Shown here: one piece after another, positions 23,865 to 62,591 of the stretch | Position numbering within the stretch: the first letter of the stretch is position 1 | Layout: each line of letters begins with the position of its first letter | Assembly: GCF_009389715.1 (NCBI RefSeq) | Contig: NC_052407.1 | Location: 8,404,475-8,468,474 of the forward strand | Reading direction: 5' to 3' | DNA length: 64,000 nucleotides | Source: Phoenix dactylifera | Lineage: Eukaryota; Streptophyta; Magnoliopsida; Arecales; Arecaceae | Program-made: the position numbers and the translations under genes | The notes under the pieces: generated by a model | The model's database searches: none | The model's input: the letters and a program-made list of their open reading frames with translations, nothing else | Told to the model about the DNA's origin: nothing

Positions 23865-25195
23865 GCATGTGTACCCTCCAAAAAATATAAAATTATATGG
23901 ATATCCTTGTAAAATTGCTATTTTCATATATACCCTCATAAATTACTTATTAATTAAAAATAAAATAAAATATTAAAATTATGCTATTGTCCTTGTCTTC
24001 TTCTCTTGCTATCGAGATCACGATCTATTTGCATGCCTATTCATTAAGGATATTTTAGTCATTTTAATTTGAAATTGTTAATTTTTTAACGTCATTAACT
24101 AGCATGGGTACATATGCAAAAATAAAAATAAAAAAAAGATAGAATAGCAAAATCAGTGTTTACGAGAGTATACATGCAAATATCAATTTTTTGAAAGGGT
24201 ATTCATGCAAAATCCGATATTTAGGAGGATATTCATACAAAAAACCCTTACTTATTTTGCATGTATACACTTCTTTTACTTTTTTTTAATATATGTATCC
24301 ATACCATCTAATGTATTTAAAAAAATAACCAATTTAAAATTAAAATGACTAAAATATCCTTATGGGTAGACGTGCAAAAAGAACACTTTATTTAGATACA
24401 TATGTAAATAGCAATTTTATGAGTGTATTCATACAATTATCCATATATAAAAGGATATACATGTAAAAAAATATAATAAAAAATGATCAAAATCTAGTAA
24501 AAATAATTCATTAATAAAAAAAGATAACAAAGAAGATTAAATCATATTAATATCAACTCTTATAGAATAAATCATGTTGCTTTTATGAAATTTTTGCCTC
24601 AAAAACAAGCAACAACTCAATATTTATAGATCACTAAAAATTATTTTATTAATCTCAGCATCTATAATTAATTTAAATTCAATATGCTATAATATTTTTA
24701 AAAATAATAAAAATATGTAGATATTATAGATTCAACAATGGTAATTATATCAAAAATCAAATAAAGAATGACATTACCAAAATGATTATCTAATATTTCA
24801 ACTCGACCGACTCAAGATCTAAAAAAAAAAAAATAACCATGTGACTTGATCTTTTTTAACTTGTTAATCTAACTGAATCATAAAAGACTTAGCAAATTTC
24901 AGCCAAATTTTATTTTTTTAATATTTTTTTGAATATATATCTTTTTAAATATAATAAATTATATGAATACCTTCATAAAGTTATTATTTTTGTGTATACC
25001 TTTATAACTTTTTTTTGCATAACTACCCAAAAGGGTATTTCAGTCATTTTAATATTAAATTGTTTATTTTTTAACGATGTTAAATGGTACGAGTACATAT
25101 AAAAAAAAGGAACATACATGCAAATAGTAATTTTATAAGAAAATTCATATAATTTCGTATATTTAGGAGGGTATACATATAAAAAATTCAAAAAA
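23865..25195. repeat. cluster of AT-rich MITE-like elements
   Basis: A phrase meaning roughly TTTGCATGTATACCCTCC plus TATAAAATTATATGAATATC recurs in both orientations. One element runs from about 23865 to 24245 with inverted ends. A second runs about 24250-24480. A third runs about 24905-25195, with the end TTAGGAGGGTATACAT at 25160-25180. The motif GTCATTTTAAT..TTAACG recurs inside the copies. The third element is cut by the outer border of the large inverted repeat, and its partial mirror copy is at 59455-59535. Confidence 0.55.
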
Positions 25196-25514
25196 AAACC
25201 AAAAGCAGTTGGTTTTATGAGAACAAAAGTTTTTAAAAGTAAATAAATTAGAAAAATCAGAAAAACATGATGCTAAAAATTAAAATTGCATGGCAAATAT
25301 TAGAAAAATATCATAATAAAATTTAGAAGAGTAAACAAATTAGGAAATTTAGAGAAATCAACTATGGGTAGATAAGTAACGATTTTAATTTTAATATTAC
25401 ATAAATTAGATTAATATTGACAAAAGTACCAAAAAGCCTATAAAGAAATAAAAAAATATAATTAGTTTTAATATTATTCTTCATAATTTATATAAATGTT
25501 ATAAAAAGAAGAAT

Positions 25515-25835
25515 ATGGAGGCGATTGTTTCGTTCCTAATTTTGGTGGGAGATGAATGCTCGCGGGAAGCATATTTTGTTTCGTGGACGCTGCCACGTGC
25601 CATGAAGTTAGCGAAAATCTCAAATCTAAGCCGTCTAGAAGAGCATCCAGACTCCTCAACCAACCAGGACACGGAAACCATCGGACTTCCAACGTTCATA
25701 CAAAAGCGTGCCCGATCTCACCGTCGATGGGTACTAGATCAACTTAATCTCAACCGTTCCTCTGCCTCGTCTCCCACTATAAATATCAGAGGATGTCGTG
25801 AGTATTTGCAGCGCGCCCTTCCGGGCGGGATGGAG
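25515..25835 (+). promoter_or_regulatory. left promoter-like module (inward, +)
   Basis: A G-box, CACGTG, lies at 25594-25599 within GCCACGTGCC. A TATA box, TATAAATA, lies at 25778-25785, about 180 bp downstream. Region GC is higher than in the flanks, and a short GC-rich hairpin, GCCCTTCCGGGC, falls at about 25815-25826, where the transcript would begin. A T-rich leader follows. The frame of 146 codons through this region is probably accidental: it spans promoter motifs and is open on both strands. The design recalls strong constitutive plant promoters with a leader intron, such as polyubiquitin genes; that likeness is inference. Confidence 0.6.
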
Positions 25836-26635
25836 CGTTCGGTTTTTCTCCTGGTTCTTTTTTTTTTCTTCTGGTTCTTAGGTGTGTCGTTCTTCTCCTT
25901 CCCCGTTAGATTTTGCGGTTCTTTAGATGTTTTGGAAGATTTTACGGTTCTTTAGCCATTGTTTTTGGGATCTTAGGTTTCTCTTGCTTGTATTTGGATT
26001 TTTGTTTGGGTACGTGGCTTTCGATTTCTTGAATTGGAGATTCTTGAAAACTAGTTCTTATTGAATTGGGGTTTCTCGTAAACGATTTATAGTATTTTTT
26101 GGTTGATAATTTGATTTAGGTCTTCGATCAAAAATTTGATCTACGGTTTTAGAATAGAGAATTATTGATTTATGGGATTCTTTGGTTGATAGTTTGATTT
26201 AGGTTTTCTGCCAACAATTTGATTTATGGTTTCAAGAATGCTTTGTTCTTATTCGAGGATCTGTGATACTTTAATTTACTGATTTGGGATTTTTTGAATG
26301 GTATAGGTCTTCGGTCAACAATTTGATATAGGCTTTTCAGTATTGAGAATGATTGATTTAAAGGATTCTTGGTTGATAATTTGATTTAGTCCTTCGGCGA
26401 ACAAATTGATTTAGGGTTTCCAGATTCAGGCATGCTTGTTCTTATTTGAGGATCTGTGACATTTAATTTACTGATTTTGGATTTCTTGAGAGGAATTTAG
26501 AGCGTCCCTTGGTTGCTAGTTTGTTATAGGTTTCAAATTTTGCTCTTTGGTACATGTTCTAGGGTTCCTATAAGCTTGGACCATATGGTTTTATTTGTGG
26601 TCTATTGCCTCTGTTCTGGATTTGGGCCTCTATGA
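25836..26635 (+). repeat. T-rich leader with internal tandem repeats
   Basis: The phrase TTGGTTGATA.TTTGATTTAG and the phrase GAGGATCTGTGA..TTTAATTTACTGATTT recur with a spacing near 190 bp (for example at 26258 and 26450). Texture is that of a plant 5' UTR intron. An almost exact inverted copy lies at 58010-58790. Confidence 0.55.
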
Positions 26636-29600
26636 GCAGGGGTTTTGAGGGATCTTCTATTAGTGATTTAGGTTTCCAAGAATTTGTCATGATCTGTTTT
26701 TTTTGATGATCTGCAGCCTTTGATCTAGTGTTTTCTTTCAGAATTTGCAATATTCTGTGATTGATTAATCGCTTTCAGGTTGATTTAGAACATCTTGTTT
26801 TTGGTTGAAGTGCAATGTCGGTTGCATAGTGGTAACTGGTTGGTGTTATTATATCGTTTCGGTATACTGACGAGTTATGGTTTTGTGGAGCACCAGAGAA
26901 GTTTTGTTGCCACAACCTTAGGAGTTCTTGATTTTCACATCTATGGTCCTGGTTTTTTTATTATATGATTTTTGTACGGATGTTCTGATGTTTGGGTTTT
27001 TTCTGTGTTCCTGATATTGGGCAGTTTTCTTGTTCTGGGACCATCAAGAATTCCTGATGGATGCCATATCTAATTCTTCATTAGCAGGTGTTTATAATCT
27101 GTTGAATTGGCAAGCTGCTTTTTAATGATTATTTTGTTGTTACTGCACTTGTATGTCGGGTTGAGGAGGGCTACTTCTTTGTTCAAGGGGTTATACCTTA
27201 ATTTATATGGAATTGGAAAGTTGGAAAATCAAGCTGCTTCAATATGTCATAATTGGCTCCAAGTATTATTATGGGGAGTTCGATTGGTTAAATCTTCCTT
27301 TATGCCTTTAGTTGCTTGATTTTGTAGTTCATCTGTTCAATGGTCTTTTTTGCAGTTTTGTTCTTTTTTAGCTGATCTGTCTATGTTGACATGCTCCTCA
27401 TTTCTTGACTGTATCTCAAGATATCCATTCTCATAATTTGCAAGTCTTGGTAAACAAGGCAAACAATTTCTTGTGCATGTTGGAAGAGTTTGTCAAAATT
27501 CAATTTGTTTCATTTCTCTTAGAGATTGAGATACAATAAGTATGCCAAATTTAGTCTGATGGCCAGTTGGTCTTTGTGCTGTGGATTGCTGAGGTTTGGA
27601 AATATCAAATTTTCAGTTATTGGGGAAGAGCTCTGTTTCTTACCCGAAATTATATTAATTTTATCCTTTTATGAATTCTCCTTTTGTAACTTTTTTTTTG
27701 GCTTATCAGGGCCGCACCTATATGGAGTTTCTAATTAGAACTTGAGATGTCCTTAGTTTGGATATGACTCTGTTTACTGCTGTATGGCTTGAAAATGTTT
27801 GATGCACAAAGAGACATTTTCTTTTTGTTGTTTATATTGTATCTGCTATACTTGGTTTAAAGGGTTCTTCACTGAGGTCAAAATAAAAATGGTTCTGTTT
27901 ACTGCTGTATGGCTTGAAAATGTTTGATGCACAAAGAGACATTTTCTCTTTGTTTTTTATATTGTATCTGCTATACTTGGTTTAAAGGGTTCTTCACTGA
28001 GGTCAAAATAAAAATGGTTCTAAATTCCTTGATGTCCTTTTGATTTCATGATAGTTCTAGAGATTCTTGCTGATGTTCTTATAAGAGGGGAAACTACGGA
28101 GTAGGTGGTTCTATTTTGTCCTGATATTTCCTTGGGTTAGTAATTTTGGCTTTCTTGTTTGCTTTGATTAGTTTTTGTGCTACATTTCTTGGTGATTGTT
28201 TTTATTTGGTTCGTCAATATCTTGATTTAATTATTGACTAAGGTAGTATAATTTTTCAGAACAAAGATATGGCTGGAGTTAAGATACGATTATGTCCCCC
28301 ATATTATATTTTCAGCCTAGCAAAACTCAATGCTGGTGGGGGTCTTTTTCTTCTTCCTAGGGATTTAGTGGAGTCACGCATTCTCACTGTTTTGCCGATC
28401 TTTATTCTGGTTGAATGCTTATCATAGGCAATCTGTCCATGATCTTGTCAAATTTGGAGCATTTTGGGCTTTTCATTTGGTCAATATGTTTTGTTTATTC
28501 ATTTATAGTTCACATATTCCAGTTATTGTTTTAGGCTTTACTGCTTGGTGATTCTTTTGTTTGTCTAACAGTATCGCGGTTTCATCTTTGACTAATGTGG
28601 CATCATATACCAAAATACAATATTGCAGGGTTGTAGTTGAAAGAAGGTTGTTTACAGAGGAGGGTGTTTCTAATCTCATATGGATTGTGTCTATTAATTT
28701 TTTTCCCTAGTGGTTGTTGCGGCATTGCAAGATTCTCTAATTCATGGGGATCTGGAAGTACATTTGACTTGATGATTTTCTTGGTATCACTCTTGCTAGT
28801 TGTGTACTCTTAAGTTTTGTCACGTTAAGTTCTATGCTTGACAACTCATTTCTCGTGCAGTGAGGTTTATGTCTTTCCTATATCATTGAATTCCTTACCA
28901 TGGACTTATTGGCAGGGACCTGCCCACCACCTAGGTTCTTAACAATTAATTCTTTTTACCGGGTTTCCTGACATTGAATTTTGTTTCAATTACCAACTCA
29001 ACCAGTTGGGATATGGCTGTTCAGTAAATGGACTTGTGGTTTACATTATCTTTTTGGTCCCTCAATGCTTGTCTTTGTTATATAATCTTTATTTTTCCTA
29101 AAATTATTAACTAAATAATGATATTAATCAGCATTTTGTTGCTTTATGTTTAGCAATGGAATGATGTTTGCTGCTCAGGATCTCCCCCTCCCCCCTTCTT
29201 TTTTTAAAAAAAACACACTCATGTGGTGCCATGAGCCAAAATAATGAATATATAGGTGCTAGTGTCAAGATTTCGTCTTCAATGCAGGGGTTTCCTATAG
29301 TTGATACTGATGTACATAAAGTGGTACATTTTCTTGAGTCCCACCAGCAGGCCAGAATATTATCATTGCTTTTATTGCAGTTTCGCAGGAGGCTTTGCTG
29401 AAGAGGTTTTCTTTTTTCAGGAGTACCAGGTTTTGCTCAAGAGGATTCTTTCCTTAAGAATGTTTGTTATCGTGTATGTTGCGGTTATTGTGTTCCAGCC
29501 TTTATTGTCTAATGATGCAGTAATTTATGTTTAGTTTACGCATTGGGTTACAGATGGAGCAGATTTTTAGAAATTATGGATTTGGTTGATTGCAATGAGT

Positions 29601-30165
29601 TTCATTCTCTTATATGATGGACAACTGCTCCTCTTCTTCTGTTTCTTTAATCAAGATTGTGATCCAGTCACACTCCTTGGTGGTACAGCTACGTGGATGG
29701 ATAGGCTCGAGATATGTTTGCAGCGAGCTTCATTTCCTTTTCTTGTATATGAGGTCCTCTTTTCCTTCTGTCTCTTTCATCAGGATGCTGATCCAGTCGT
29801 CAGTTTTCCATAGTCATAATGCTACTGTGCATGGATTGGCTTCATGCATGGTTTTGACGAGTGAGGTTTTTCATCCTATAGCGAAGGTATGGAAGACGAT
29901 ATGGCTTTGCTGGCTGGATTTGCTTCGTATATGGTTTTCATGGGCGACATTTTTCATCCTGCTGCAAAGATATGAAATGATATATTTCCCAGGTTGCTCA
30001 CTCAGGGCGTGGAGTGATCACTGTTTCTTCAGTCCCAGTCCTGCCTGAGCTTGTAGTGGTGGAGACATATTTTGTAGTGGGTAGTTCTCAAGATCTTGGA
30101 CTTGTCAAATTTTCATGGATCTCATTTATGGTTGTCAGCTTTTTGGGTTCTTAAAGAATTGATTT
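26636..30165 (+). repeat. left-arm unit A1 (about 3.5 kb)
   Basis: It begins at GGTTTTGAGGGATCTTCT (26640), which recurs at 30170. The unit carries an extra 125-bp tandem duplication (27770-27894 and 27895-28019) and a single copy of the CCCTAGTGGTTGTTGCGGC block. It shares these single-copy traits with the central unit A2 rather than with units B1 and B2. Short frames inside are not conserved between units. Confidence 0.75.
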
Positions 30166-33100
30166 TGGGTTTTGAGGGATCTTCTGTTATTGATTTAGGT
30201 TTCCAAGAATTTGTCATGATTTGCTTTTGTTTGATGATCTGCAGCCTTTGATATAGTGTTTTCTTTCAGAATTTGGAATATTCTGTGATTGATTAATAGC
30301 TTTCAGGTTGATTTAGAACATCTTGTTTTTGGTTGAAGCGCAATGTCTGTTGCATAGTGCTAACTTGTTGGTGTTATTATATCATTTTGGTATACTGATG
30401 AGTTATTGTTTTGGGGAGCACCAGAGAAGTAGTGTTTCCACAACCTTAGAATTCCTGATGGATGTCATATCTAATTCTTCATTAACAGGTGTTTACAATC
30501 TGTTGAATTGGCAAGCTGGTTTATAATGATTATTTTGTTGTTACTGCAGTTGTATGTCGGATTGAGGAGGGCTATTTCTTTGTCCAAGGGGTTATACCTT
30601 AATTTATATGGAATTGGAAAGCTGGAAAATCAAGTTGCTTTTATATAGTTTGAGGCAATACGTCATAATTGGATCCAGGTATTATTATAGGGAGTTCAAT
30701 TGGTTAAATCTTCCTTTATGCCTTTAGTTGCTTGATTTTGTAGTTCATCTGCTTGATGGTATTTTTTGCAGTTTTGTTCTTTATTAGCTGATCTGTCTAT
30801 GTTGACATGCTCCTCATTTCTTGACTGTATCTCAAGATATCCATTCTCATAATTTGCAAGTCTTGGCAAACCATTTCTTGTGCATGTTGAAAGACTTTGT
30901 CAACATTCATTTTATTTCATTTCTCTTAGAGATTGAGATACAATAAGTATGGTAAAGAAAGCAGGTTCCAGTTTAGTCTGATGGCCAGTTGGTCTTTGTG
31001 CTGTGGGATTGCTGAGGTTTGGAATTATCAAATTTTCAGTTATTGGGGAAGAACTCTGTTTCTTACCCTAAGGGCCTAAACTATATTAATTTTGTCCTTT
31101 TTGTAGTTTTTTTTTGGATTATCAGGGCCGCACCTATACGGAGTTTCTAATCAGAACTTGAGATGTCTTTGGATATGACTCTGTTTGCTGCTATATGGCT
31201 TGAAAATGTTTGATGCACAAAGAGACATTTTCTCTTTGTTTTCTCCTACCTCCCTCCCTCCCTCTCTCTCTCACAGTTTTTTATATTGTATCTGCTATAC
31301 TTGGTTTAAAAGGTTCTTCACTGAGGTTAAAATAAAAATGGTTCTAAATTCCTTGATGTCCTTTTGATTTCATGATAGTTCTAGAGATTCTTGCAGATGT
31401 TCTTATGAGAGGGGAAACTACTGAGTAGGTGGTTCCATTTTGTCCTGATATTTCCTTGGGCTAGTAATTTTGTTGTCTGCTTTGATTATTCTTTTGGGCT
31501 ACATTTCTTGGTGATTGTTTTTATTTGGTTCATCAATATCTTGATTTAATTATTGACTAAGGTAGTATCATATTTCAGAACAAAGATATGGCAGGAGTTA
31601 AGATATGATTGTATGAGGGGAAATATGACTTTAATGGATTTTGTCCCCCATATTATTTTTTCAGCCTTGCAAAACTCGATGCTGGTGTGGGTCTTTTTCT
31701 TCTTCCTAGGGATTTAGTGGAGTCTTGCATTCTCACTGTTTTGCCAATCTTTATTCTGGTTGAATGCTTATCATAGGCAATCTGTCCATGATCTTGTCGG
31801 AATTGGAGCATTTTGGGTGGTTCATTTGGTCAATATGTTTTGTTTATTCATTATAGTTCACATGTTCCAGTTATTGTTTTAGGCTTTACTGCTTGGCGAT
31901 TCTTTTGTTTGTCTAACAGTATCGCGGTTTCATCTTTGACTAATGTGACATCATATACCAAAATACAATATTGCAGGGTTGTAGTTGAAAGAAGGTTGTT
32001 TACAGAGGAGGTGTTTCTATCTCATATGGATTGTGCCTATTAATTTTTTTCCCTAGTGGTTGTTGCGGCATTGCAGGATTCTCTAATTCATGGGGATCTG
32101 GAAGTACATTTGACTTGATGATTTTTTGTGTCTATTAATTTTTTTCCCTAGTGGTTGTTGTGGCATTGCAGGATTCTCTGATTCATGGGGATCTGGAGGT
32201 ACATTTGACTTGATGATTTTCTAAGTATCACTCTTACTAGTTTGTGTACTTTTAAGTTTTGTCCTGTTAAGTTCTAGGCTTGGCCGCTCATTTCTCGTGC
32301 AGTGAGGTCTATTTATTTCCTATATCATTGAATTCCCTATCACGGACTTATTGGCAGGGACTTGCCCACTCCCTAGGTTCTTAAAAAATAATTCTTTTTT
32401 GCGAGTTTTCTGACAATGAATTCGGTTTCAATTACCAACTCAACCAGTTGGAATATGGCTGTTCAGTAAATGGACTTGTGGTTTACATTATCTTTTTGGT
32501 GCCTCAATGTTTGTCTTGTTATATATTCTTTATTTTTCCTAAAATTGTTAACTAAATAATTGATAATAATCAGCATTTTGTTGCTTTATGTTTAGCAATG
32601 GAATGATGTTTGCTTCTCAGGATCTCCCACTCCCCCCTTCTTTTTTAAAGAATAACACGCTGATGTGGTGCCTTGAGCGAAAGTAACGATATATAGGTGC
32701 TAGTGTCAAGATTTCGTCTTCAATGCAGGGGTTTCCTATCTTTGATACTGATGTACATAAAGCACCACATTTTCTTGAGTCCCACTAGCAGGCAAGAATA
32801 TTATCGTTGCTTTAATTGCAGTTTTGCAGGAGGCTTTGCTGAAGAGGTTTTTCTTTTTTCGGGAGTCCCATGTTTTGCTCGAGAGGATTCTTTCTTTTAA
32901 GAATGTTTGTTATCGTGTATGTTGCGGTTATTGTGTTCCAGCTTTTTATATCGAATGATGCGGTAATTTTTGTTTAGTTTACATTGGGTCACAGCAGGTG
33001 GGGATTTTTAGAAATTCTGGATTTGGTTGATTGTAATGAGTTTCATTCTCTTATATGATGGACAACTGCTCCTCTTCTTCTGTTTCTTTAATCAAGATTG

Positions 33101-35263
33101 TGATCCAGTCCAACTCCTTGGTGGTACTGCTACGTGGATTGGTAGGATTGAGGTATGGTTGCAGCGAGCTTCATTTCCTTTTCTTGTGTATGAGGTTCTC
33201 TTTTCCTTCTGTCTCTTTCATCAGTATGCTGATCCAGTCATCAGTTTTCCATAGTGATAATGCTACTGTGCATGGGTTGGCTTCATGCATGGTTTTGATG
33301 AGTGAGGTTTTTCATCCTATAGAGAAGGTATGAAAGAGGATATGGCTTTGGTGGATGGATTGGCTTCGTATATGGTTTTCAGTCGTCCTGCTTTGGGAAA
33401 TGTTATATTTCCCAGGTTGGTACTCAGGGCATGTAGTGATTACTGTTTCTTCAATTCCAGTCCTGCCTGAGCTTGTAGTGGTGGAGATATATTTTGTAGT
33501 GGGTAGTTCTCAAGAACTTGGGACTTTGTCAAATTTTCATGGATCTCATTTATGGCTGTTGGCTTTTTGGGTTCTTAAAGAATTGCTTTTGGCATTCAAT
33601 TTGGTTTATGACTTAAAGAATTGCTTTTCTGGCACTGTGCTTTCAGAGCATCTTGGGAGTCATCAACTTCTTGTCTTGCTTTTGTTGGACCGTATTTGAA
33701 GTATCTTTAGATTATATTCTCTCTCATTTTTTTAAACTTTCACTTCTTAGTTATCTTAGTGATGGGGAGCAAAATGGATCGGGCCAAATTTGAACCCCAA
33801 CACTTAGCTATATGGGCAATGTAAATGTCAGTTTCTAGGGATCTGGACATCGGTATAGTTTTTCTGTTAGTGCTTTCAGATTATATTGTACCAGAACAAT
33901 AACTGCCACTTATGAGCGTCATCGAAGTTGATGGATACAAGTGTTTGGTAAGTAGCACTTTAATTAGCAAGTTGCACATCTCGATTCATCATCTCTCATT
34001 TTCCTTTCTTTCCTTTTTGGCTCATGTTATGTTTCATGTTTCAGCTAAGGGTGTTTCTTATCTTTGTTGATGTGGATCAATCAAAATACTTTATCAGTTT
34101 TTATGGCGGGCAGAATTTAATATCCTTGTTCTGGTCGAATTTCATAGAGGTTTTGCTCTAGCAGATTCTTTTCATTGAGGGGAGCTTTTGCTACTGGATG
34201 TTGGTATTATTTGTCTGCTGGGCTCTATCATCTCAATGCTTCAGTGATCTAAATGATTTGGTGAGATATGTCATCTTTTGATCAGGGAATGGATGTGGAT
34301 CCTTATGCACACCTTGGGCTACAATCTAAAGAGTATTGTTAGGAATTTCATTTTTCTGGAAATTCTGGATTTGGATATTTGCAAGGAGCTTCGTATGTCT
34401 TCCCCTAGAGTCAAGGTTCTTCTTTAGATTTTTTGAAGTTACCTGTCACCAATATTTCATCATCAATTCCATTTTTTTCATCATGTACTATGGTTAATAT
34501 ATCCATTTTTTTTGCTAAGTCATCCTCTTCAATTAGTGCCCTGAATCAATTGGGAAATTTCTGCAGCTTCAATATTGACTGAAGCAGTCATATGAAGTAA
34601 TTGGCTCATGATATAATTCTGATGAAGGGGGGGTTTTACCTTAAAGTTTATTATGCATATTTTGTTAAATGACATTTATTTAGTAGTCTTCTTACCAAAG
34701 CTGATTATTGTTTCTTGTTTCTTTGCAGCCTCTTGAGAGCGTGTCATGGTAATCCAGTTTGACTTATGTAGAATCTACAAATTCCTTTTTCTTAACTATC
34801 TGAATAGGTATCTTGGTTATTGACACCTTGGGCTACAATCTGAAGAGTCTTGTTAGGAATTTCATTTTTCTGGAAATTCTGGATTTGGATATTTGCAAAG
34901 AGCTCCATCTGTCTTCCCTTGGAGTCAAGGTTCTCCTTTCTTTTTTAGATTTTTTGAAGTTACTTGTCACTAAGATTTCCTCATCAATTCCATTATTTTC
35001 ATCATGTACTATGGCTAATATATCCATGTTTTTTTGCTAAGTGATCCTCTTCAATCAATGCCCTGAATCAATCAGCAAATTTCTGCAGCTTCAATATTGA
35101 CTGAAGCAGTCATATGAAGTGGTTGGCTCAAGATAATTTTCTGATGAAGGGGGGTTTTTACCTTAAAGTTTATTATGCACATTTTGTTAAATGACATTTA
35201 TTTAGCAGTCTTCTTACCAAAGCTGATTATTTTTTATTTAGCAGTCCTCAACATTTATTATTC
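30166..35263 (+). repeat. left-arm unit B1
   Basis: The first 0.7 kb repeats the start of unit A1. The part 30894-35263 is repeated as unit B2, offset about 4.37-4.38 kb, almost without change. It differs from A units by a CCTCCCTCCCTCTCTCTCTC block (31250-31275), a 94-bp local duplication (about 32035-32225), and an extra 1.7 kb at its end. That end holds a 0.51-kb internal duplication (starts at 34309 and 34823, CACCTTGGGCTACAATCT). Confidence 0.8.
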
Positions 35264-38200: not shown

Positions 38201-39640
38201 TGTCAGTTTCTAGGGATCTGGACATCGGTATAGTTTTTCTGTTAGTGCTTTCAGATTATATTGTACCAGAACAATAACTGCCACTTATGAGCGTCATCAA
38301 AGTTGATGGATACAAGTGTTTGGTAAGTAGCACTTTAATTAGCATGTTTCACATCTCGATTCATCATCTCTCATTTTCCTTTCTTTCCTTTTTGGCGCAT
38401 GTTATGTTTCATGTTTCAGCTAAGGGTGTTTCTTATCTTTGTTGATGTGGATCAATCAAAATATATCAGTTTTTATGGCGGGCAGAATTTAATATCCTTG
38501 TTCTGGTCGAATTTCATAGAGGTTTTGCTCTAGCAGATTCTTTTCATTGAGGGGAGCTTTTGCTACTGGATGTTGGTATTATTTGTCTGCTGGGCTCTAT
38601 CATCTCAATGCTTCAGTGATCTAAATGATTTGGTGAGATATGTCATCTTTTGATCAGGGAATAGATGTGGATCCTTATGCACACCTTGGGCTACAATCTA
38701 AAGAGTATTGTTAGGAATTTCATTTTTCTGGAAATTCTGGATTTGGATTTTTGCAAAGAGCTTCGTATGTCTTCCCCTCGAGTCTAGGTTCTATTTTCTT
38801 CTTTAGATTTTTTGAAGTTACCAGTCACCAAGATTTCACCATCAATTCCATTATTTTCATCATGTACTATGGTTAATATATCCATTTTTTTTGCTAAGTG
38901 ATCCTCTTCAATCAGTGCCCTGAATCAATCGGCAAATTTCTGCAGCTTCAATATTGGCTGAAGCAGTCATATGAAGTAATTGGCTCATGATATAATTCTG
39001 GTGAGGGGGGGGGGGGGGTTTACCTTAAAGTTTATTATGCATATTTCGTTAAATGACATTTATTTAGTAGTCTTCTTACCAAAGCTGATTATTGTTTCTT
39101 GTTTCTTGGCTGCCTCTTGAGAGCGTGTCATGGTAATCCAGTTTGACTTATGTAGAATCTTCAAATTCCTTTTTCTTAACTATCTGAATAGGTATCTTGG
39201 TTATTGACACCTTGGGCTACAATCTAAAGAGTCTTGTTAGGAATTTCATTTTTCTGGAAATTCTAGATTTGGATATTTGCAAAGAGCTCCATCTGTCTTC
39301 CCTTGGAGTCAAGGTTCTCCTTTCTTTTTTAGATTTTTTGAAGTTACCTGTCACTAAGATTTCCTCATCAATTCCATTATTTTCATCATGTACTATGGCT
39401 AATATATCCATGTTTTTTTGCTTAGTGATCCTCTTCAATCAGTGCCCTGAATCAATCAGCAAATTTCTGCAGCTTCGATATTGACTGAAGCAGTCATATG
39501 ATGTGGTTGGCTCAAGATAATTTTCTGATGAAGGGGGGTTTTACCTTTAAGTTTATTATGCACATTTTGTTAAATGACATTTATTTAGTAGTCTTCTTAC
39601 CAAAGCTGATTATTGTTTCTTGTTTTTTTGCAGCCTCTTG
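35264..39640 (+). repeat. left-arm unit B2, near-identical tandem copy of B1
   Basis: Corresponding frames of 67, 92 and 114 codons at 37071, 37431 and 37731 differ from those at 32697, 33055 and 33355 by only one or a few residues, and the offset is constant near 4,376. Near-identity without selection on a protein points to a recent tandem duplication. A 15-G run sits at about 39004-39018. Confidence 0.85.
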
Positions 39641-47900: not shown

Positions 47901-48272
47901 GGAAAATTTTGATGGATCTCATTTATGGTTGTCAGCTTTTTAGGTTCTTAAAGAATTGCTTTTGGGTTTTGAGGGATCTTCTGTTATTGGTTTAGGTTTC
48001 TAAAAATTTGTCATGATCTGCTTTTGTTTGATGATCTGCAGCCTTTGATCTAGTGTTCTCTTTCAGAATTTGGAATATTCTGTGATTGATTAATAGCTTT
48101 CAGGTTGATTTAGAACATCTTGTTTTTGGTTGAAGCGCAATGTCTGTTGCATAGTCGTAAGTTGTTGGTGTTATTATATCATTTTGGTATACTGACGAGT
48201 TATGGTTTTGTGGAGCACCAGAGAAGTATTGTTGACACAACCTTAGGGAGTTCCTGATTTTCACATCTATGA
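44934..48272 (+). repeat. central unit A2 between the inverted arms
   Basis: The left border follows TTTGAACTCTATC and the right border is at CATCTATGACCCTCTACATG. Inside, the order matches unit A1 from 27090 to 30170 and then 26640-26950. It has the same orientation as the left arm, so it forms the loop of any hairpin. It carries a unique insert at 45617-46033. Confidence 0.75.
45617..46033. mobile_element. unique insert with AAAAAG and GGGTC repeats
   Basis: The repeat unit breaks after TATGACTCTGTG (45617) and resumes near TAGGTAGTATCATATTTCAG (46034), with about 0.4 kb of the unit missing. The insert begins with moderately GC-rich unique sequence. It then has an (AAAAAG)n tract (45783-45831), a CT run, and an array of GGGTC/GACCC words (45858-46022) that pair within themselves. 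Its right end, inverted, reads AAGGCTGCAAATGGGTCGGG, a start I know from dispersed plant repeats. A target duplication is not seen. Confidence 0.5.
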
Positions 48273-49301
48273 CCCTCTACATGACAAAACACAAGCAAAC
48301 ACAGGCCCGGACGTCAGAGGACATGGGCATTCCCCAATAAGCGTTTGAACGGGGTGACACAATCCTCTACCATGCCAATATGTTGAATTAGTCGGGCAAC
48401 CTAGTGAATGATAACACATCACCAACAATCCAATGCATGTTTTTTTCGCCTAAAAAAAGAAAAACATGATGATAGAACATTGACTTAAATTAAGATTAAG
48501 CTGGAAATCCACAAGCAAACAAGACAGATGGCATAGACCACCATGACAGCAAAAAAATTGTGCAAAAGGACTCACCTTCCCTTGCACAAATTCACAATCG
48601 GATCGAGCAATGGTCACTTTGAGAACTACATAGCGATAAATGGATAGAGTTAAAAATGCTTTGAGAGACGGGTGCTATCCAACAGTAAAATAGATCAATC
48701 ATTCTTTCATGCGAAAGATACAACCCAACCCCCCCTCTCCCCCCCCCGGAAGCACGACCAAAACTCTCATCACATTAAAATACAACAGCAACCATCCATT
48801 TAGAACGAGAACAACACGTACCGATACCATCCTATTATAATATCAGTATATGATACAATATGAAATGGCAACAGGTACCAAATGTTGATACAGTACGAGA
48901 ACAACATACTGATTCAATATCAGTATGGTACAATAAATCCGACATAGTACAGTACTGACCAGTACGGCAAATTTTGATCTAGACACTTATGTAACTTAAC
49001 AAAACTTCCAAGAGAACCAGAACATCCACATAAACAAAATAGCCATTCAGAAAAAAAAAAAAAGCATTACATTCCTTGATCATCAAAGATTGCTTCCAAA
49101 CGAGATCACAAATATTACATTCCTACTCGCCAAGAGATAACTTAGTTAAGGCCTCAAACTTTCAGTTAGACTTCATTAGATCAATCGCTCTCTTCATATT
49201 TTATATTATTGAACCGTTTAGCCCCTATAACAAAACAGAATGATAATACGTTTAATGTTGTCTTCATAGGATTTTAGTCTACCATGGGCTTAGGACAACG
49301 A

Positions 49302-49709
49302 GACCTCAAACTATGTAAGCAGTCTCGCGGAAAAGGCTTGGCTTTGTTAGTAGTGCCCGCCCATTCTGTCTCGCCCGCCTTTCCGGTCCGTCCTTCATAG
49401 GGCGCACGACATGTCTACTCAACTGATACCACTAGCCTTGCATTGTGTGGACTTCCCTTCCCCAATCCAGAACTAGTCGACCTTTCATCACAAATTCTTT
49501 CATGAGCTGGTCCTCGCCTTTTAAAGCCGGGATAAGGGCCTTGCTCGACTGGAAGGACAGGATTGGTTTCAAACCGGAGGAAAGAATGAAGTTCAGTGGA
49601 ATTTCCTTGCCTTGTAATGAGCAAGAGTCGACTGACCTTGCTATCTACGAGACAAGATAGCTGGGTTGGGTGGGATGTGAAGAAATGGAAACCCGATCCA
49701 GCAGTGATC
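49302..49709. other. foreign insert in the right arm, possibly mitochondrial
   Basis: Mirror homology to the left arm stops after TTAGGACAACGA and resumes at ATTACCATGATAGCG, about 400 bp later; only about 60 bp of the arm is lost. The insert is richer in GC, without the A/T bias of the arm, and open in several frames (for example 49445-49660). Its texture resembles plant mitochondrial DNA. I recognise no gene, so the source is a guess. Confidence 0.45.
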
Positions 49710-52700
49710 GATGGATTACCATGATAGCGATGAATAAAACTCTAGTTGCATCGAAATACAACACTAACCATCCATTCACAAAGAGAGAAAAAGATAAGTA
49801 CAAAAGAAGAAGAAAATACATCACCAACAGTCCAATGCATATGATTTTTTTGAATGGAAAAAGGATCACAGAACAATGGCTTCATATACCATAAATGATT
49901 GCTTGCCCACTCAATGGATTCATCTTTCATATACTATAAACATACAAGCCAGATGATCAAATTAATAGGACACACAACATAACTCTGCATATGGCAAAAC
50001 ACAAGAAGACACAGACCCAAACATCAGAGGACATGGGCATTCACCAATAAGCGTTTGAACGGGGTGCCACAATCCTCTACCATGCCAATAAGTTGAATTA
50101 ATTGGGCAACTTAGTTATGTGTAATCTGACAGTCAAGATTTAGTGAATGATAATTGCATAGGCCACAAAATCACTACACAAAATGAAACCTCAGTATTTT
50201 GCATGGAAACATCACAATCTAGCATCAATGATTAACGTTGAATGTGCCTTTAAGATGAAAAACCACAAGCAAACAAGAAGCAAATAACATGGACCACTAC
50301 GACAGGAATAAAAGAACCACCACATGCATATGACCAAAACTCTACTCCCATCAACATACATCACCAACAGTCCAATGCATGTTTTTCTTCCACAAAAAAG
50401 AAAAGATGACTGTAGGACAATGGTTTAAATATTGAGTCAAATGGAAAAACCACAAGCAAACAGGACACAAAACATGGATTACCATGATAGCAATAAAAGA
50501 GCCACCATGCAAACAGACTAAAACTCAAGCTGCATCAAAATACAACACCAACCATCCATTCACAAAGAGAGAAAAAGATATGTACAAAAGAAGAAGAAAA
50601 TACATCACCAACAGTCCAACGCATATGATTTTTTTGAGCAGAAAAAGGAGCATAGAACAATGGCTTCATAATAAACGTGTCTAAGCTGGAGAACCACAAG
50701 AAAACAAGAAAGGGATCACCATAACAGCAATCAAGGAATCACCAAGAATAACCAAAACTCTGCACGCATTAAAATATATCACCAACAGTCCAATGCATGT
50801 GTTTGTCTCCCAAAAGAGAAAAATAAATAAGAAAATAAAGATTCTGAAAAAGTAAAAAAAATATGAGTATAGAACTATAGCTCTGAAAACTGCAAGTAAA
50901 CAAGAAAGAAATTACCATGACATCAATCAAAGTACCACCTTGCATGCATGACCAAAACTCTTTACTCGCATTAAAATACATCACCATTCAGTACATGTGT
51001 TTTTCCCCCAAAAACTAAAGATGTATCGATGTTAAATTCCACAAAAAAGAAAAAAAAACATATTCACAAGTGTGTATTTTTTTCTTAAAAGAGAGAAGAA
51101 GGGACAAGTATAGCATGATAACTTAATATTGAATGTCATAGGATGACATAGCATGCCATGACAGCAATAAAAGAACCATAATGCACACCCACAAGCAAAA
51201 TTCTACCTAATGACTTAATATTAATCACAAATGACCTACAGCCGGAAAAGCACAGAAGAAGAACAAAATATGTAGCAAAGTATAGAACAATGGATGAATA
51301 TTAAATGTGTCTAAGTTGAAGGACCACAAGCAAACAACAAACAAAAAATCATAATGGTAATTATGGTACAATACCTTCCATAAGAACAACAATCAAACTG
51401 ATTTGTCAAATTCGATGTATCGATCCAATAGACTGCTTCCTGCTAAAGTAAAGGGAGATACAACCCAACCAGCCCCCGACAATAAAGATAGTTGAAAACT
51501 TTTCACATAGGTCTTTGTTTGAAAAGTTCAAGATCAAAGGTTTTGCAGCAATGTGACAAAGAATAGAAAGCCACAAGAATGAGTTGAAACTAAGTAATAG
51601 TGATGTACCTTCAAGATGACTAGCATACCATAACAATGGACAATATCATGGTCTATCTTGATAGAGCCCATGCAAAAAGCATCAAACTCTACCCTTTGTG
51701 AACAGGATACCAACCATAATTGAGAAGAAATTATCTTGATATAATTTTTTCAAAAGCATGCTTCCAAGAAAACATCAAACAACATATGAATCCCAAAACC
51801 TAAAAGTCTATATCTTTTAACAGTTCACAGCCTTCAATGTCATGGAAAGGCAGCTAATGTACAGGTGTTAATGAAATGATAACCAAAATAACCAACCTCA
51901 GAATGAAACACCAAATAAACATTTTTGAAGTAACATACTATCCCCTACCTATCACAAAAGCAAACAGTGTGTATGCTAAAATTCTTGCACAAACTACATT
52001 ATATTCAATAGCATGAACCAAAAGTATATTCTGTGAACAAACTTCGAATGGGCGGGGACAAGCAAGACAGAATCAGAACAAGATCACCTCAGTTATGAAT
52101 TCCAAGTTTACAATCTACCCAAATTAACAAACAAGATACTTATTCAGAAGGCTAATTAAAAAAAAAAAGTCATAAATCCTATAAGAGGCATTGATCAGGT
52201 ATTTTCCAAAACTAAAATGTAAAAATCTGTCGAGCCCTAAATCCGGGACAAAATACAACCATACTATTGGGGGGTACAATCCTTGATAACATGAAGCCAA
52301 CAATTATAATCTTAAATAAAATCAAAAATCCAAAACTATCATTCATGAAATAACTAAATAAATGTTGGTTCAGAGCCACTAAATCCATATTTAAATATCA
52401 AAAGGAGAGAAAGGGAATAGTCAACGGTGAACCAATACACCAGCAATCAAGAGGAAAAAGAAGAAAAAGAAGGCACACGTGGCCAACGATGTTGGATGGT
52501 AGATCCTCAAGGGGGTGGGATGCCTTAAATTGAGGTGGAGGGTTAGGATTTCCTAGCCTCCAGCCTTCTAGACTTTGACTCCCAATCAGAGTAGTCGAAG
52601 GAGTCTACTGTAACTAGGCACGTGCAAGGCATGCACCTGACTTTCCTTTCTCTTTTTTTATTTTCTTTTTTGTGGGCAAAGGGCGATCTTATTGATGGGC

Positions 52701-55700
52701 TGGTCAAGTGGACCAGGCAACCACAAATCAGCCTCAGTTATGAAAGAAATCTATTAAAATTTAATCTGGTCCGAGTTCTTCAAAATCTATCCAAATCAAT
52801 AACCAAGATACCTATTCAGATGGTTAAGAGAAAGGAATTTGTAGATTCTACATAAGTCAAATTGGATTACTATGCCACGCTCTCAAGAGTCTGCAAAGAA
52901 ACAAGAAACAATAATCAGCTTTGGTAAGAAGGCTACTAAATAAATGTCATTTAACAAAATATGCATAATAAACTTTAAGGTAAACCCTCCCTTCATCAGA
53001 ATTATATCTTGAGCCAACCACTTCATACGACTGCTTCAGTCAATATTGAAGCTGCAGAAATTTGCTGATTGATTCAGGGCACTGATTGAAGAGGATCGCT
53101 TAGCAAAAAAACATGGATATATTAACCATAGTACATGATGAAAATAACGGAATTGATGATGAAATCTTAGTGACAGGTAACTTCAAAAAATCTAAAGAAG
53201 AAAGGAGAACCTTGACTCCAAGGGAAGATAGATGAAGCTCAATAAATGTCATTTAACAAAATATGCATAATAAACTTCAAGGTAAAACCCCCCTTCATCA
53301 GAATTATATCATGAGCCAATTACTTCATACGACTACTTCAGTCAATATTGAAGCTGCAGAAATTTGCTGATTGATTCAGGGCACTGATTGAAGAGGATCA
53401 CTTAGCAAAAAAAATGGATATATTAACCATAGTACATGATGAAAATAATGGAATTGATGATGAAATCTTGGTAACAGGTAACTTCAAAAAATCTAAAGAA
53501 GAAAGAAGAACCTTGACTCCAGGGGAAGACAGATGAAACTCTTTGCAAATATCCAAATCCAGAATTTCCAGAAAAATGAAATTCCTAACAATACTCTTTA
53601 GATTGTAGCCCAATGTGTGCATAAGGATCCACATCTATTCCCTGATCAAAAGATGACATATCTCACCAAATCATTTAGATCACTGAAGCATTGAGATGAT
53701 AGAGCCCAGCAGACAAATAATACCAACATCCAGTAGCAAAAGCTCCCCCCAATGAAAAGAATCTGCTACAGCAAAACCTCTATGAAATTCGACCAGAACA
53801 AGGATATTAAACTCTGCCCGCCATAAAAACTGATAAAGTATCTTGATTGATCCACATCAACAAAGATAAGAAACACCCTTAGCTGAAACATGAAACATAA
53901 CATGAGCCAAAAAGGACAAGAAAGGAAAACAAGAGATGATGAATTGAGATGCGCAACATGTTAATTAAAGTGCCACTTACTAAACACTTGTATCCATCAA
54001 CTTCGATGACGCTCATAAGTGGCAGTCTTTGTTCTGGTACAATATAATCTGAAAGCACTAACAGAAAAAACTATACCGATGTCCAGATCCCTAGAAACTG
54101 ACATCTACATTGCCCATATAACTAAGATAACTAAGAAGTGAAAGCTCAAAAAAATGAGAGAGAATATAATCTAAAAGATGCTTCAAATACGGTCAAACAA
54201 AAGCAAGACAAGAAGTCGATGACTCCCAAGATGCTCTGTAAGCACAATCCCAGAAAAGCAATTCTTTAAGTCAATAGCATTTCTTTAAGAACCCAAAAAG
54301 CTGACAACCATGAATGAGATCCATGAAAATTTGACAAAGTCCAAGTTCTTGAGAACTACCCACTACAAAATATATCTCCACCACTACAAGCTCAGGCAGG
54401 ACTGGAATTGAAGAAACACTGAAACAGTAATCACTACATGCCCTGAGTACAACCTGGGAAATATAACATTTCATATCTTCGCAACAGGACGAAAAATGTC
54501 GCTCATGAAAATCATATACGAAGGCAATCCATCCACCAAATCCATATCCTCTTTCATACCTTCTCTATAGGATGAAAAACCTCACTCATCAAAACCATGT
54601 ATGAAGAAAACCCATGCACAGTAGCATATCACTATGGAAAACTGATGACTGGATCAGCATACTGATGAAAGAGACAGAAGGAAAAGAGAACCTCATACAC
54701 AAGAAAAGGAAATCAAGCTCGCTGCAACCATACCTCAATCCTACCAATCCATGTAGCTGTACCAAGGAGTTTGACTGGATCACAATCTTGATTAAAGAAA
54801 CAGAAGAAGAGGAGCAGTTGTCCATCATATAAGAGAATGAAACTCATTACAATCAACCAAATTCAGAATTTCTGAAAATCCCCACCAGCTGTGACCCAAT
54901 GCGTAAACTAAAAGAAAATTACCGGATTGCCCATTCATGAAATAAGGTGCAGGGGTTCTTTGCATCCGTAGAGGAGGCTCATCCATGATTGGGAATCGGA
55001 ATGTCGGTACTTGACTGCATCATTAGACATAAAAAGCTGGAACACAATAACCGCAACATACACGATAACAAACATTCTTAAAAAAAAGAATCCTCTTGAG
55101 CAAAACCTGGGACTCCCGAAAAAGAAAAACCTCTTCAGAAAAGCCTCCTGCGAAACTTCAATTAAAGCAATGATAATATTCTTGCCTGCTAGCGGGACTC
55201 AAGAAAATGTGCCGCTTTATGTACATCAGTATCAAAGATAGGAAACCCCCGCATTGAAGATGAAATCTTGACACTAGCACCTATATATCGTTACTTTGGC
55301 TCAAGGCACCACATCAGTATGTTATTCTTTAAAAAAGAAGGGGGGAGGGGGAGATCCTGAGCAGCAAACATCATTCCACTGCTAAACATAAAGCAACAAA
55401 ATGCTGATAAATATCATTATTTAGTTAATAATTTTAGGAAAAATAAAGATTATATAACAAGACAAGCATTGAGGGACCAAAAAGATAATATAAACCACAA
55501 GTCAATTTACTGAACAGCATATCCCAACTGGTTGAGTTGGAAATTGAAACTGAATTCAATGTCAGAAAACTCGCAAAAAAGAATTAATTTTTAAGAACCT
55601 AGGTAGTGGGCAAGTCCCTGCCAATAAGTCCGTGATAGAAAATACAATGATATAGGAAATAAATAGACCTCACTGCACGAGAAATGAGCTGCCAGGCCTA

Positions 55701-58700
55701 GAACTTAACAGGACAAAACTTAAAAGTACACAAACTAGTAAGAGTGATACTTAGAAAATCATCAAGTCAAATATACCTCCAGATCCCCATGAATTAGAGA
55801 ATCATGCAATGTCACAACAACCAATAGGGAAAAAAATTAATAGACACAAAAAATCATCAAGTCAAATGTACTTCCAGATCCCATGAATTAGAGAAGCCTG
55901 CAATGCCGCAACAACCACTAGGGAAAAAAATTAATAGACACAATCCATATGAGATTAGAAACAAACCCCTCTGTAAACAACTTTCTTTCAACTACAACCC
56001 TGCAATATTGTATTTTGGTATATGATGCCACATTAGTCAAAGATGAAACCGCGATACTGTTAGACAAACAAAAGAATCATCAAGCAGTAAAGCCTAAAAC
56101 AATAACTGGAACATGTGAACTATAAATGAATAAACAAAACATATTGACCAAACGAACCACCCAAAATGCTCCAATTCCGACAAGATCATGGACAGATTGC
56201 TTATGATAAGCATTCAACCAGAATAAAGATTGGCAAAACAGTGAGAATGCGAGACTCCACTAAATCCCTAGGAAGAAGAAAAAGACCCCCACCAGCATAG
56301 AGTTTTGCAAGGATGAAAAAATAATATGGGGTACATAATCATTAAAATCATATTTCCCCTCATACAATCATATCTTAACTCCTGCCATATCTTTGTTCTG
56401 AAATATGATACTACCTTAGTCAATAATTAAATCAAGATAGTGATGAACCAAATAAAAATAATCACCAAGAAATGTAGCCCAAAAGAATAATAAAAGCAGA
56501 CAAGAAAGCCAAAATTACTAGCCCAAGAAAAATATCAGGACAAAATAGAACCACCTACTCGGTAGTTTCCCCTCTTATAAGAACATCTGCAAGAATCTCT
56601 AGAACTATCATGAAATCAAAAGGACATCAAAAGAACTATCTTAGTGAAGAACCCTTTAAACTAAGTATAGCAGATACAATATAAAAAACTGTGAGAGAGA
56701 GAGAGGGAGGGAGGAAGGTAGGAGAAAACAAAGAGAAAATGTCTCTTTGTGCATCAAACATTTTCAAGCCATACAGCAGCAAACAGAGTCATGTCCAAAC
56801 TAAGGACATCTCAAGTTCTGATTAGAAACTCCGTATAGGTGCGGCCCTGATAATCCAAAAAAAAAGCTACAAAAAGGACAATTCATAAAAGGATAAAATT
56901 AATGTAATTTAGGATAAGAAACAGAGCTCTTCCCCAATAACTGAAAATTTTATAATTCCAAACCTCAGCAATCCACAGCACAAAGACCTACTGGCCATCA
57001 GACTAAATTTGGCATACTTATTGTATCTCAATCTCTAAGAGAAATGAAAGAAATCGAATTTTGACAAACTCTTCCAACATGCACAAGAAATTGTCTGCCT
57101 TGTTTGCCAAGACTTGCAAATTATGAGAATGGATATCTTGAGATACAGTCAAGAAATGAGGAGCATCTCAACATAGAGAGATCAGTTAAAAAACAGAACA
57201 AAACTGCAAAAGAGACCATTGAACAGATGAACTACAAAATCAAGCAACTAAAGGCATAAAGGAAGATTTAACCAATCGGACTCCCTATAATAATACCTGG
57301 AGCCAATTATGACATATTGCCTAAAACTATCTAAAAGCAGCTTGATTTTCCAACTTTCCAATTCCATATAAATTAAGGTATAAGCCCTTGAACAAAGAAG
57401 TAGCCCTCCTCAACCCGACATACAACTGCAGTAACAACAAAATAATCATTATAAAGCAGCTTGCCAATTCGACAGATTATAAACACCTGTTATTGAAGAA
57501 TTAGATATGACATCCATCAGGAATTCTTGATGGTCCCAGACCAAGAAAACTGCTCAATATCAGGAACACAGAAAAAACCCAAACATCAGAACATCCGTAC
57601 AAAAATCATATACTAAAAAAAACCAGGATCATAGATGTGAAAATCAAGAACTCCTAAGGTTGTGGCAACAATACTTCTCTGGTGCTCCACAAAACCATAA
57701 ATTGTCAGTACACCAAAATGATTTAATAACACCAACAAGTTACCACCATGCAACAGACATTGCGCTTCAACCAAAAACAAGATGTTCTAAATCAACCTGA
57801 AAGCTATTAATCAATCACAGAATATTGCAAATTCTGAAAGAAAACACTGGATCAAAGGCTGCAGATCATCAAACAAAAGCAGATCATGACAAATTCTTGG
57901 AAACCTAAATCACTAACAAAAGATCCCAACTGCAGATCATCAAACAAAAGCATATCATGACAAATTCTTGGAAACCTAAATCTCTAACAGAAGATCCCTC
58001 AAAACCCCTGCTCATAGAGGCCCAAATTCCAGAACAGAGGCAATAGACCACAAATAAAAACATATGGTCCAAGCTTATAGGAACCCTAGAACATGTACCA
58101 AAGAGCAAAATTTGAAACCTATAACAAACTAGCAACCAAGGGACGCTCTAAATTCCTTTCAAGAAATCCAAAATCAGTAAATTAAATGTCACAGATCCTC
58201 AAATAAGAACAAGCATGCCTGAATCTGGAAACCCTAAATCAATTTGTTCGCCGAAGGCCTAAATCAAATTATCAACCAAGAATCCTTTAAATCAATCATT
58301 CTCAATACTGAAAACCCTATATCAAATTGTTGACCGAAGACCTATACCATTCAAAAAATCCCAAATCAGTAAATTAAAGTATCACAGATCCTCGAATAAG
58401 AACAAAACATTCTTGAAACCATAAATCAAATTGTTGGCAGAAAACCTAAATCAAACTATCAACCAAAGAATCCCATAAATCAATAATTCTCTATTCTAAA
58501 AACCGTAGATCAAATTTTTGATCGAAGACCTAAATCAAATTATCAACCAAAAAATACTATAAATCGTTTACGAGAAACCCCAATTCAATAAGAACTAGTT
58601 TTCAAGAATCTCCAATTCAAGAAATCGAAAGCCACGTACCCAAACAAAAATCCAAATACAAGCAAGAGAAACCTAAGATCCCAAAAACAATGGCTAAAGA

Positions 58701-58819
58701 ACCGTAAAATCTTGCAAAACATCTAAAGAACCGCAAAATCTAACGGAGAAGGAGAAGAACGACACACCTAAGAACCAGAAGAAAAAAAAAAAGAACCAGG
58801 AGAAAAACCGAACGCTCCA

Positions 58820-59135
58820 TCCCGCCCGGAAGGGCGCGCTGCAAATACTCACGACATCCCCTGATATTTATAGTGGGAGACGAGGCAGAGGAACGGTTGA
58901 GATTAAGTTGATCTAGTACCCATCGACGGTGAGATCGGGCACGCTTTTGTATGAACGTTGGAAGTCCGATGGTTTCCGTGTCCTGGTTGGTTGAGGAGTC
59001 TGGATGCTCTTCTAGACGGCTTAGATTTGAGATTTTCGCTAACTTCATGGCACGTGGCAGCGTCCACGAAACAAAATATGCTTCCCGCGAGCATTCATCT
59101 CCCACCAAAATTAGGAACGAAACAATCGCCTCCAT
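58820..59135 (-). promoter_or_regulatory. right promoter-like module (inward, -)
   Basis: This is the inverted copy of the left module. The TATA box is at 58872-58865 and the G-box at 59051-59056. Over about 315 bp I see one substitution (AGAGG versus AGGGG just after the TATA box) and no indel. It would drive transcription into the right arm towards the centre. Confidence 0.6.
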
Positions 59136-59535
59136 ATTCTTCTTTTTATAACATTTATATAAATTATGAAAAATAATATTAAAACTAATTATATTTTTCT
59201 TATTTCTTTATAGGCTTTTTGGTACTTTTGTCAATATTAATCTAATTTATGTAATATTAAAATTAAAATCGTTATTTATCTACCCATAGTTGATTTCTCT
59301 AAATTTCCTAATTTGTTTACTCTTCTAAATTTTATTGATATTTTTCTAATATTTGCCATGCAATTTTAATTTTTAGCATCATGTTTTTCTAATTTTTCTA
59401 ATTTATTTACTTTTAAAAACTTTTGTTCTCATAAAACCAACAGCCTTTGATTTTTTTAGAATTTTTTATATGTATACCCTCCTAAATATATAAAATTATA
59501 TAATTATCTTTATCAAATTACTTTTTGCATGTATG

Positions 59536-61634: not shown

Positions 61635-61756
61635 AGTCGCACAATTTAGCGTAAGCTGTTAGAATGAAAAGCCTGCAAGATAACTTCAACATTTTAATCT
61701 ATTTGAACACCATCACAGGTACAAATGTTTGTCCATGTGATCAACCGCATGGAATG

Positions 61757-62434: not shown

Positions 62435-62591
62435 GAATGAATCAAAAAACCGCATGATCTCCGCATCATGTGATCGAACATGCAATCTCTATGTTTGACC
62501 GTTGTGATCGAACCCGGATTGAAGAAGAGGAACGGCGACAAGCAAATTAGATTATCATTCAATAAGAAAGGGAATCTTGGTTCCGACACCA

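Follow-up and report, generated by a model that had tools for sequence, protein, structure and literature searches.

A convergent duplication of a promoter-bearing, probably non-coding unit in the date palm genome

The 64,000-nucleotide stretch of date palm DNA analysed here (‘the window’; C16:8404475-8468474, in a genome of 773078369 bases and 2391 contigs) contains a large inverted duplication, which we consider is probably, though by no means certainly, best described at the level of its anatomy as the convergent, tail-to-tail duplication of a non-coding unit that bears a promoter and occurs at low copy. One such unit would consist of a promoter module (P), comprising a TATA promoter and a CpG-normal start; a T-rich body of ~8 kb, divided into sections U and E; and, at this locus, a tail (X). 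Within this description the unit may be either an RNA gene or the promoter and giant intron of a lost gene, two possibilities that the DNA cannot tell apart. The locus is a further instance of a known arrangement.

Comparison of the window with itself places arm 1 at 25111-48271 (+) and arm 2 at 59537-48276 (-), a repeat whose length and identity exclude a chance origin; the T-rich strand switches side at ~48 kb. Reading inwards from the outer ends, arm 2 is composed of one P-U-E-X unit, and arm 1 runs in the order P-U1-U2-E1-U3-E2-X-U4, followed by the beginning of a fifth U (Table 1).

The large inverted repeat of the original prediction, whose outer ends each carry a promoter-like module, is borne out, the outermost 1.6 kb of the arms (25111-26716 / 59537-57930) being 97.9% identical over 1612 columns; the details given for its match and its centre are not. 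The near-exact match over kilobases that had been described applies to this outer pair and to a direct repeat (below): the other long inverted pairs are ~86-96% identical and carry indels, with a value of 96% being reached by one 0.7-kb piece only and lower values seen for short pieces of the X repeats. Expressed as difference, the two arms diverge by 4-12% of aligned bases in their interior, and by 2-14% overall. The longest exact inverted match, of 310 bp (25480 / 59170), lies over the promoter; 21-mers found exactly in arm 1 cover 70% of arm 2, and 100-mers 6%. The highest long match of the interior, at 97.1% over 4378 columns, is a direct repeat of 4.36 kb (30894-35238 / 35264-39621), rather than an inverted one. 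Nor is there a separate 3.3-kb middle (~44.9-48.3 kb), as had been proposed: the section is not unique, 46032-48269 being a direct copy of 28238-30473 (92.9%), and the so-called centre is U4, a copy of U1. Inverted arms capable of forming a duplex are present, if imperfect (mostly 86-98%).

Table 1. Features of the inverted duplication (positions in the window).
Feature	Position	Strand	Basis or remark
P of arm 1, with upstream, core-promoter and start regions	25111..26716	+	97.9% inverted match to 57930-59537
CpG-normal zone, promoter and start	25251..26400	+	O/E 1.2-1.3; 0.1-0.5 further in
Core-promoter block, ACTATAAATA at its end (25776-25785)	25710..25785	+	Alignment with C1, C28
188-bp tandem repeat in P of arm 1	26117-26489	+	Tandem-repeat search
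U1, first of the 3.5-kb body-unit copies	26640..30168	+	
U2	30167..33630	+	92.6% to U1
E1, first copy of the body 3' part	33640..35238	+	97.6% to E2
Direct repeat of 30894-35238 (U3 and beginning of E2)	35264..39621	+	97.1%
E2, full 3' part	38015..41245	+	C1/C28 homology stops at ~41245
X tail, degenerate ~200/430-bp tandem repeats	41246..44930	+	Common to arm 2 and C8, not C1/C28
U4 and beginning of a further U copy (47964-48271)	44931..48271	+	92.9% direct match
Arm 1-only insertion, A-rich and GGGTC-rich	45618..46031	+	Gap in U4 versus other U copies
X of arm 2 (read downward from 51246)	48276..51246	-	94.5% inverted, 49718-51246 versus 42664-44191
Arm 2-only composite insertion	49297..49691	.	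Four pieces matching distant C2390 sites, end to end
E of arm 2	51400..54252	-	94.2% to E2
U of arm 2	54265..57927	-	95.0% to U2, 92.8% to U1
P of arm 2, mirror of 25111-26716	57930..59537	-	735/739 aligned bases (99.5%) identical to arm 1 in the promoter alignment

When seven pieces of the locus were searched against the palm genome, with only the best candidates scored so that copy counts are lower bounds, members of the P/U/E/X family were located at no fewer than three further places: C1 (37.83 Mb), C28 and C8. The C1 copy (C1:37834967-37826174; ~8.8 kb) is a collinear P-U-E; that on C28 (C28:800297-779788) is also P-U-E, interrupted by insertions and losses; and that on C8 (C8:29456091-29461471) reads U-E-X, without P. 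A small mosaic fragment lies at C1:38.79 Mb, and the remaining matches in the genome are short interspersed repeats only (e.g. ~41483-41665 and ~40122-40298), together with a piece found 3' of the body (see below). Over the aligned bases of the body, the arms are 82-87% identical to C1, 89-92% to C8 and 73-86% to C28, with C1 and C28 being 87-92% identical to each other; body composition is constant over the arms, C1 and C8 (T 0.39-0.41, A 0.23-0.24). A P-like stretch at C1:16.6 kb was set aside as an isolated fragment, its match being limited to the surroundings of the 188-bp repeat; 3' of this stretch are Ty3-type gag and reverse transcriptase domains, as well as a protease match just below cut-off.

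In an alignment of the P modules of arm 1, arm 2, C1 and C28, the 76 bases at 25710-25785 are ungapped, with 67/76 identical to C1 and 61/76 to C28. The 74 bases preceding this block give 12/31 plus 43 gap columns for C1 and 45/73 for C28; the 76 bases following it, 24/41 plus 35 gaps and 5/16 plus 60 gaps, respectively. The decamer ACTATAAATA has a single occurrence on every one of four strands, namely the two of the window and the sense strands of the C1 and C28 stretches. As a section of the body (25938-26013) is equally conserved, at 63/76 and 66/76, the promoter block is not unique and would represent a footprint relative to its direct neighbours only. The unit has, in sum, a predicted TATA promoter of its own, with a sequence signature in four copies.

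From ~400 bp upstream to ~400 bp downstream of the promoter, the observed/expected (O/E) ratio for CpG is ~1-1.4 in arm 1, arm 2 and C1, and the body of each is mostly at or below 0.5; C28 agrees at the promoter only, its downstream part being mixed. From this contrast between promoter and body we infer that the promoter has probably been unmethylated in the germline and the body CG-methylated. Further upstream of the arms' promoters, CpG is again sparse. Whole bodies have O/E ratios of 0.29-0.39 and the outer flanks of the locus 0.64-0.67; for the neighbouring gene, the ratio on its 9-19-kb side is 0.29.

The frames scanned agree with the original prediction that the arms keep no long reading frame and no conserved protein. 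The longest arm frame (25452-25955; 167 codons) spans the TATA box and is taken for chance, because no frame of 100 codons exists at the corresponding position of the C1 copy. Whole-frame scans listed no Pfam match for the sense strand of 25110-35011 and 38910-48811 (three frames each) or for 49638-59539 in six frames, at a limit of E 10 (filters of the program discard most matches above ~0.1); within arm 1, these scans covered the sense strand on either side of 35012-38909. Scanned singly, the arm frames gave one sub-cut-off match (Longin_2, E 0.26), and a control for the masked scan, consisting of stretches of the window other than the arms, found the adjoining GRAS and Frigida. A protein-coding gene was rejected on finding no Pfam match in the masked arm frames, nor in the four frames scanned for the C1 copy and the sequence downstream of it; the frames scanned show no coding potential, with which tiny exons remain compatible.

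A known RNA family, a conserved plant miRNA or a miRNA/snoRNA host can likewise be set aside, as nothing reached threshold. Rfam returned no match at gathering threshold in the locus (7 sub-threshold matches in an E-value search), with 18 sub-threshold matches in the C1 and C28 stretches, 17 of them within L033:7701-8499; and 4 of 28 plant small-RNA sequences match at 5 mismatches, none better. Among the literature matches listed for date palm long noncoding RNA or long inverted repeats there is no account of the locus.

Small indels number 141 over six pairwise comparisons, and the length of 27 of them is divisible by three. Counted in 20-bp windows, substitutions have a variance of 0.71-1.32 of the binomial in five of six body comparisons; in the sixth, arm 2 versus U1, the ratio is 2.12, as expected with some converted patches. 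Given this even spread, no exon/intron pattern is visible. The bodies of C1 and C28 have diverged by 7.6% (6095 sites, from 22 of the 28 300-base windows of 37834400-37826001, six with little or no C28 homology having been dropped) versus 19.7% for chosen upstream stretches (715 sites), one intervening window of 87.4% identity being excluded from the body and almost entirely from the upstream stretches; the contrast could reflect constraint, conversion or a faster upstream region.

Both C1 and C28 have a coding-looking stretch 3' of the body. A search of the palm genome with this 58-residue stretch returns 10 places—C1 itself, 6 with stops and 3 without, the latter being pieces of 23-34 residues—and on C301, C1315 and C2390 the match is 66% identical and interrupted by stops; no match was found in Pfam or PDB. 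We set it aside as a coding exon, and regard it as a dispersed piece that may derive from a mitochondrial genome (C2390).

It is the relatives, the promoter block, the CpG pattern, the constant body composition, the indel counts, the nearly even substitutions and the near-identity of the arms at P that together favour our description of the locus as a duplicated non-coding unit. Set against these are the comparable conservation within the body, the sparse CpG upstream of the arms' promoters, the coding-looking 3' stretch of C1 and C28, the lack of P in C8, and the lower divergence of the C1-C28 body relative to its upstream region, which is unexplained. If the description is correct, RNA polymerase II would read each arm inwards from its own promoter, yielding two near-identical sense RNAs; the unit would have been germline-active for long enough that CpG was kept at the promoter and lost from the body; and tandem copying and inversion, possibly with conversion at P, would have generated the present layout. 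Double-stranded RNA (dsRNA) would then arise by occasional read-through, not as a designed product.

The alternative that survives best, and which overlaps with the reading as a non-coding unit, is that a protein-coding gene has lost its exons and that its promoter and a giant first intron are what survives, the copies being neutrally decaying remnants; this we judge possible, if on balance unlikely. The body is T-rich and intron-like, as is the side into which the Frigida-like gene next to the locus is expected to extend (AT skew of 0.09-0.25 on that gene's antisense strand), and the nearly even spread of substitutions would also suit an intron. Close to the promoter, arm 1 has 4 occurrences of TTTGATTTA versus 0.13 expected, an enrichment due in part to duplication of the 188-bp repeat; a splice-like AAAG/GTGAGT is found at X; and TGCAGG occurs 15 times versus 5.7 expected in arm 1, but 2 times versus 2.4 in arm 2. 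The coding-looking 3' stretch in C1 would fit too, but is dispersed, with stops at 6 of its 9 other places, and the - strand of C1 beyond the body is without a Pfam match in four frames, three of them covering L034:4000-10000. Furthermore, the donor NGGTRAG is present in 0/9 U sequences, and in 3/6 E sequences, one to three times each. The IME motif TTNGATYTG was also considered and rejected: its exact form is found in neither arm's P and once in C1, and TTTGATTTA resembles it but differs.

The original prediction had proposed a candidate hairpin RNA locus. On such a reading, a transcript running through from one outer promoter would cross the centre, fold back and be cut by DICER-LIKE enzymes, with the resulting siRNAs silencing the arms or the copies on C1, C28 and C8. 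What stands of this is the tail-to-tail anatomy, the outer promoters and the 4523 distinct 21-mers common to both arms, by virtue of which a centre-crossing transcript would in principle be a Dicer-like substrate; the stretches fetched from C1, C28 and C8 contain 184, 124 and 206 of them, respectively. The X arms (42664-44191 / 49718-51246) would pair in a transcript crossing ~8.6 kb. However, both outer promoters transcribe the same sense strand, their RNAs being alike and not complementary, so that dsRNA requires read-through into the opposite arm. For such read-through speaks the small number of AATAAA signals in the arm 1 sense strand (6 in 22.5 kb), and against it their density on the + strand of arm 2 (23 in 11.3 kb); there are 50 on the - strand of arm 1 and just 1 on the sense strand of arm 2. 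As these counts agree with composition, and plant poly(A) signals are loose, the density of AATAAA weakens read-through but does not exclude it.

Two further observations count against a hairpin: the 4-12% by which the arm interiors differ, and the lack of a coding target in the searches with the seven query pieces, the best candidates among homologous targets elsewhere being non-coding copies of the family only. The same is true of arm-specific C>T/G>A changes, which, summed over five rows (one each for E2, U1 and U2 and two for arm 2, with E1, U3 and U4 left out), amount to 14/122 at CG, 12/558 at CHG and 58/2782 at CHH. As CHG is not raised over CHH, we see no trace of methylation like that of silenced inverted repeats; the counts speak of germline history only, and such a trace is not strictly required of a hairpin locus. 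The uninverted C8 copy gives 6/127 (CHG) and 28/663 (CHH); C1 versus the arms, with the root branch included, 21/231 and 96/1182; and C1 and C28, compared with each other and arm 2 and taken together, 7/197 and 16/778, a somewhat higher ratio from small numbers. Depletion of CWG was discarded as a mark of methylation owing to its poor discrimination, with only one of four stretches taken to be transposon or TE-like DNA being depleted (0.54), the others at 0.91-1.04 and the arms at 0.94-0.97. A hairpin/siRNA role is possible, then, but finds no support in the DNA, and as an account of the locus we think it doubtful.

Several known systems invite comparison. Rice Lgc1 consists of tail-to-tail glutelin genes from which the terminator region has been lost; the palm locus resembles it in layout and in requiring read-through for dsRNA, but has ~10 kb of X and U4 between its E ends. 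Arabidopsis PAI is a coding gene. The PAI1-PAI4 locus is, like that of the palm, a natural inverted repeat, but one that excerpts of PMC9263138 describe as always densely methylated, whereas the palm arms have no CHG excess in their C>T counts. For hairpin transgenes, the same excerpts report that inverted-repeat DNA is methylated and that built-in mismatches prevent this; by analogy, the mismatch between the interiors of the palm arms would fit an escape from methylation. Precedents for a hairpin are the soybean I locus, a 27-kb inverted repeat cluster of duplicated CHS1-3-4 genes for which extracts of PMC3804491 report siRNA silencing, and maize Mu killer, for which a read-through hairpin is proposed in extracts of PMC3440606. 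The palm locus shares with the former the inverted clustering of duplicated sequences and with the latter its nature as an inverted duplication. The I locus, however, comprises coding CHS sequence with CHS7/CHS8 as targets, and no coding sequence or target was found for the palm locus; Mu killer derives from a transposon, and its read-through starts in a flanking gene, whereas the palm arms have their own predicted promoters and belong to a family that is not a recognised transposon.

Returning to the non-coding unit, we would venture, as a conjecture with the odds against it, that this is an undescribed palm gene family making ~8-kb, largely unspliced, U-rich non-coding RNAs from the conserved TATA promoter, and that the tail-to-tail array may have drifted just far enough inside to escape inverted-repeat methylation with its promoters still near-identical: an inverted repeat that stays expressed. 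If expressed, the locus would constitute a natural test of how much inverted arms must differ before they cease to provoke silencing in a plant, the uninverted relatives on C1, C28 and C8 serving as controls in the same genome; if not expressed, it would be an example of a promoter-bearing non-coding unit spreading by tandem and inverted duplication.

A large foldback element, or a transposable element of another kind, would account for the long inverted arms and the several dispersed copies, but is very improbable: by eye, there is no target-site duplication or known terminus at 25111/59537, the layouts of the two arms are unequal, the copies on C1, C28 and C8 are few and, in the stretches fetched, not inverted, and the arm frames scanned contain no transposase or reverse transcriptase domain. 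Least probable of all is a false palindrome—long inverted repeats being a known failure of long-read assembly—since the arms have diverged from one another and each has an insertion of its own (45618-46031 and 49297-49691), with the tandem copies, moreover, being present in arm 1 only.

In the inverted duplication, the longest exact inverted match between the two arms (310 bp) spans the promoter; the arm interiors, by contrast, are mostly 86–96% alike. Perfect identity here, set within arms that otherwise differ to this extent, suggests that the promoter may have been recently copied or converted.

Arm 2 also carries a filler insertion, composed of four pieces. Contig C2390 of the same genome has a counterpart of each at 98–100% identity, in four places far apart from one another, and the pieces overlap by 1–3 bases where they join. 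By eye, the insertion stands in place of some tens of bases of X, the tail of the unit. As C2390 is probably the mitochondrial genome, this four-part match looks like the recent repair of a break with several scraps of mtDNA.

Among the relatives elsewhere in the genome, comparison of C1:37826001–37836200 with the C28 copy gives a divergence of 7.6% in the body and 19.7% upstream; homology stops at C1:37826001, except for a 157-column piece beyond. The family's units end, on the 3' side, in a piece of ~260 bp, whose C1 copy sits inside a 130-codon open frame, itself without match in Pfam or PDB, and further copies of this piece occur on C2390, C301 and C1315 at ~75–86% DNA identity.

Features of the duplication, its relatives and its neighbours
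Feature	Position	Strand	Remarks
GRAS-domain gene	window 6021-6982	+	left of locus
Frigida-like gene	window 19961-21214	-	left of locus
Longest exact inverted match	window 25480-25789 / 59170-58861		
3' piece	window 41145-41244		
3' piece	C1:37826004-37826271		
3' piece	C28:779636-779920		
Filler insertion	window 49297-49691		pieces of 121, 80, 106 and 94 bp
Tandem repeat, GC-rich	window 61755-62436		right of locus; 367 bp, two copies 97% alike
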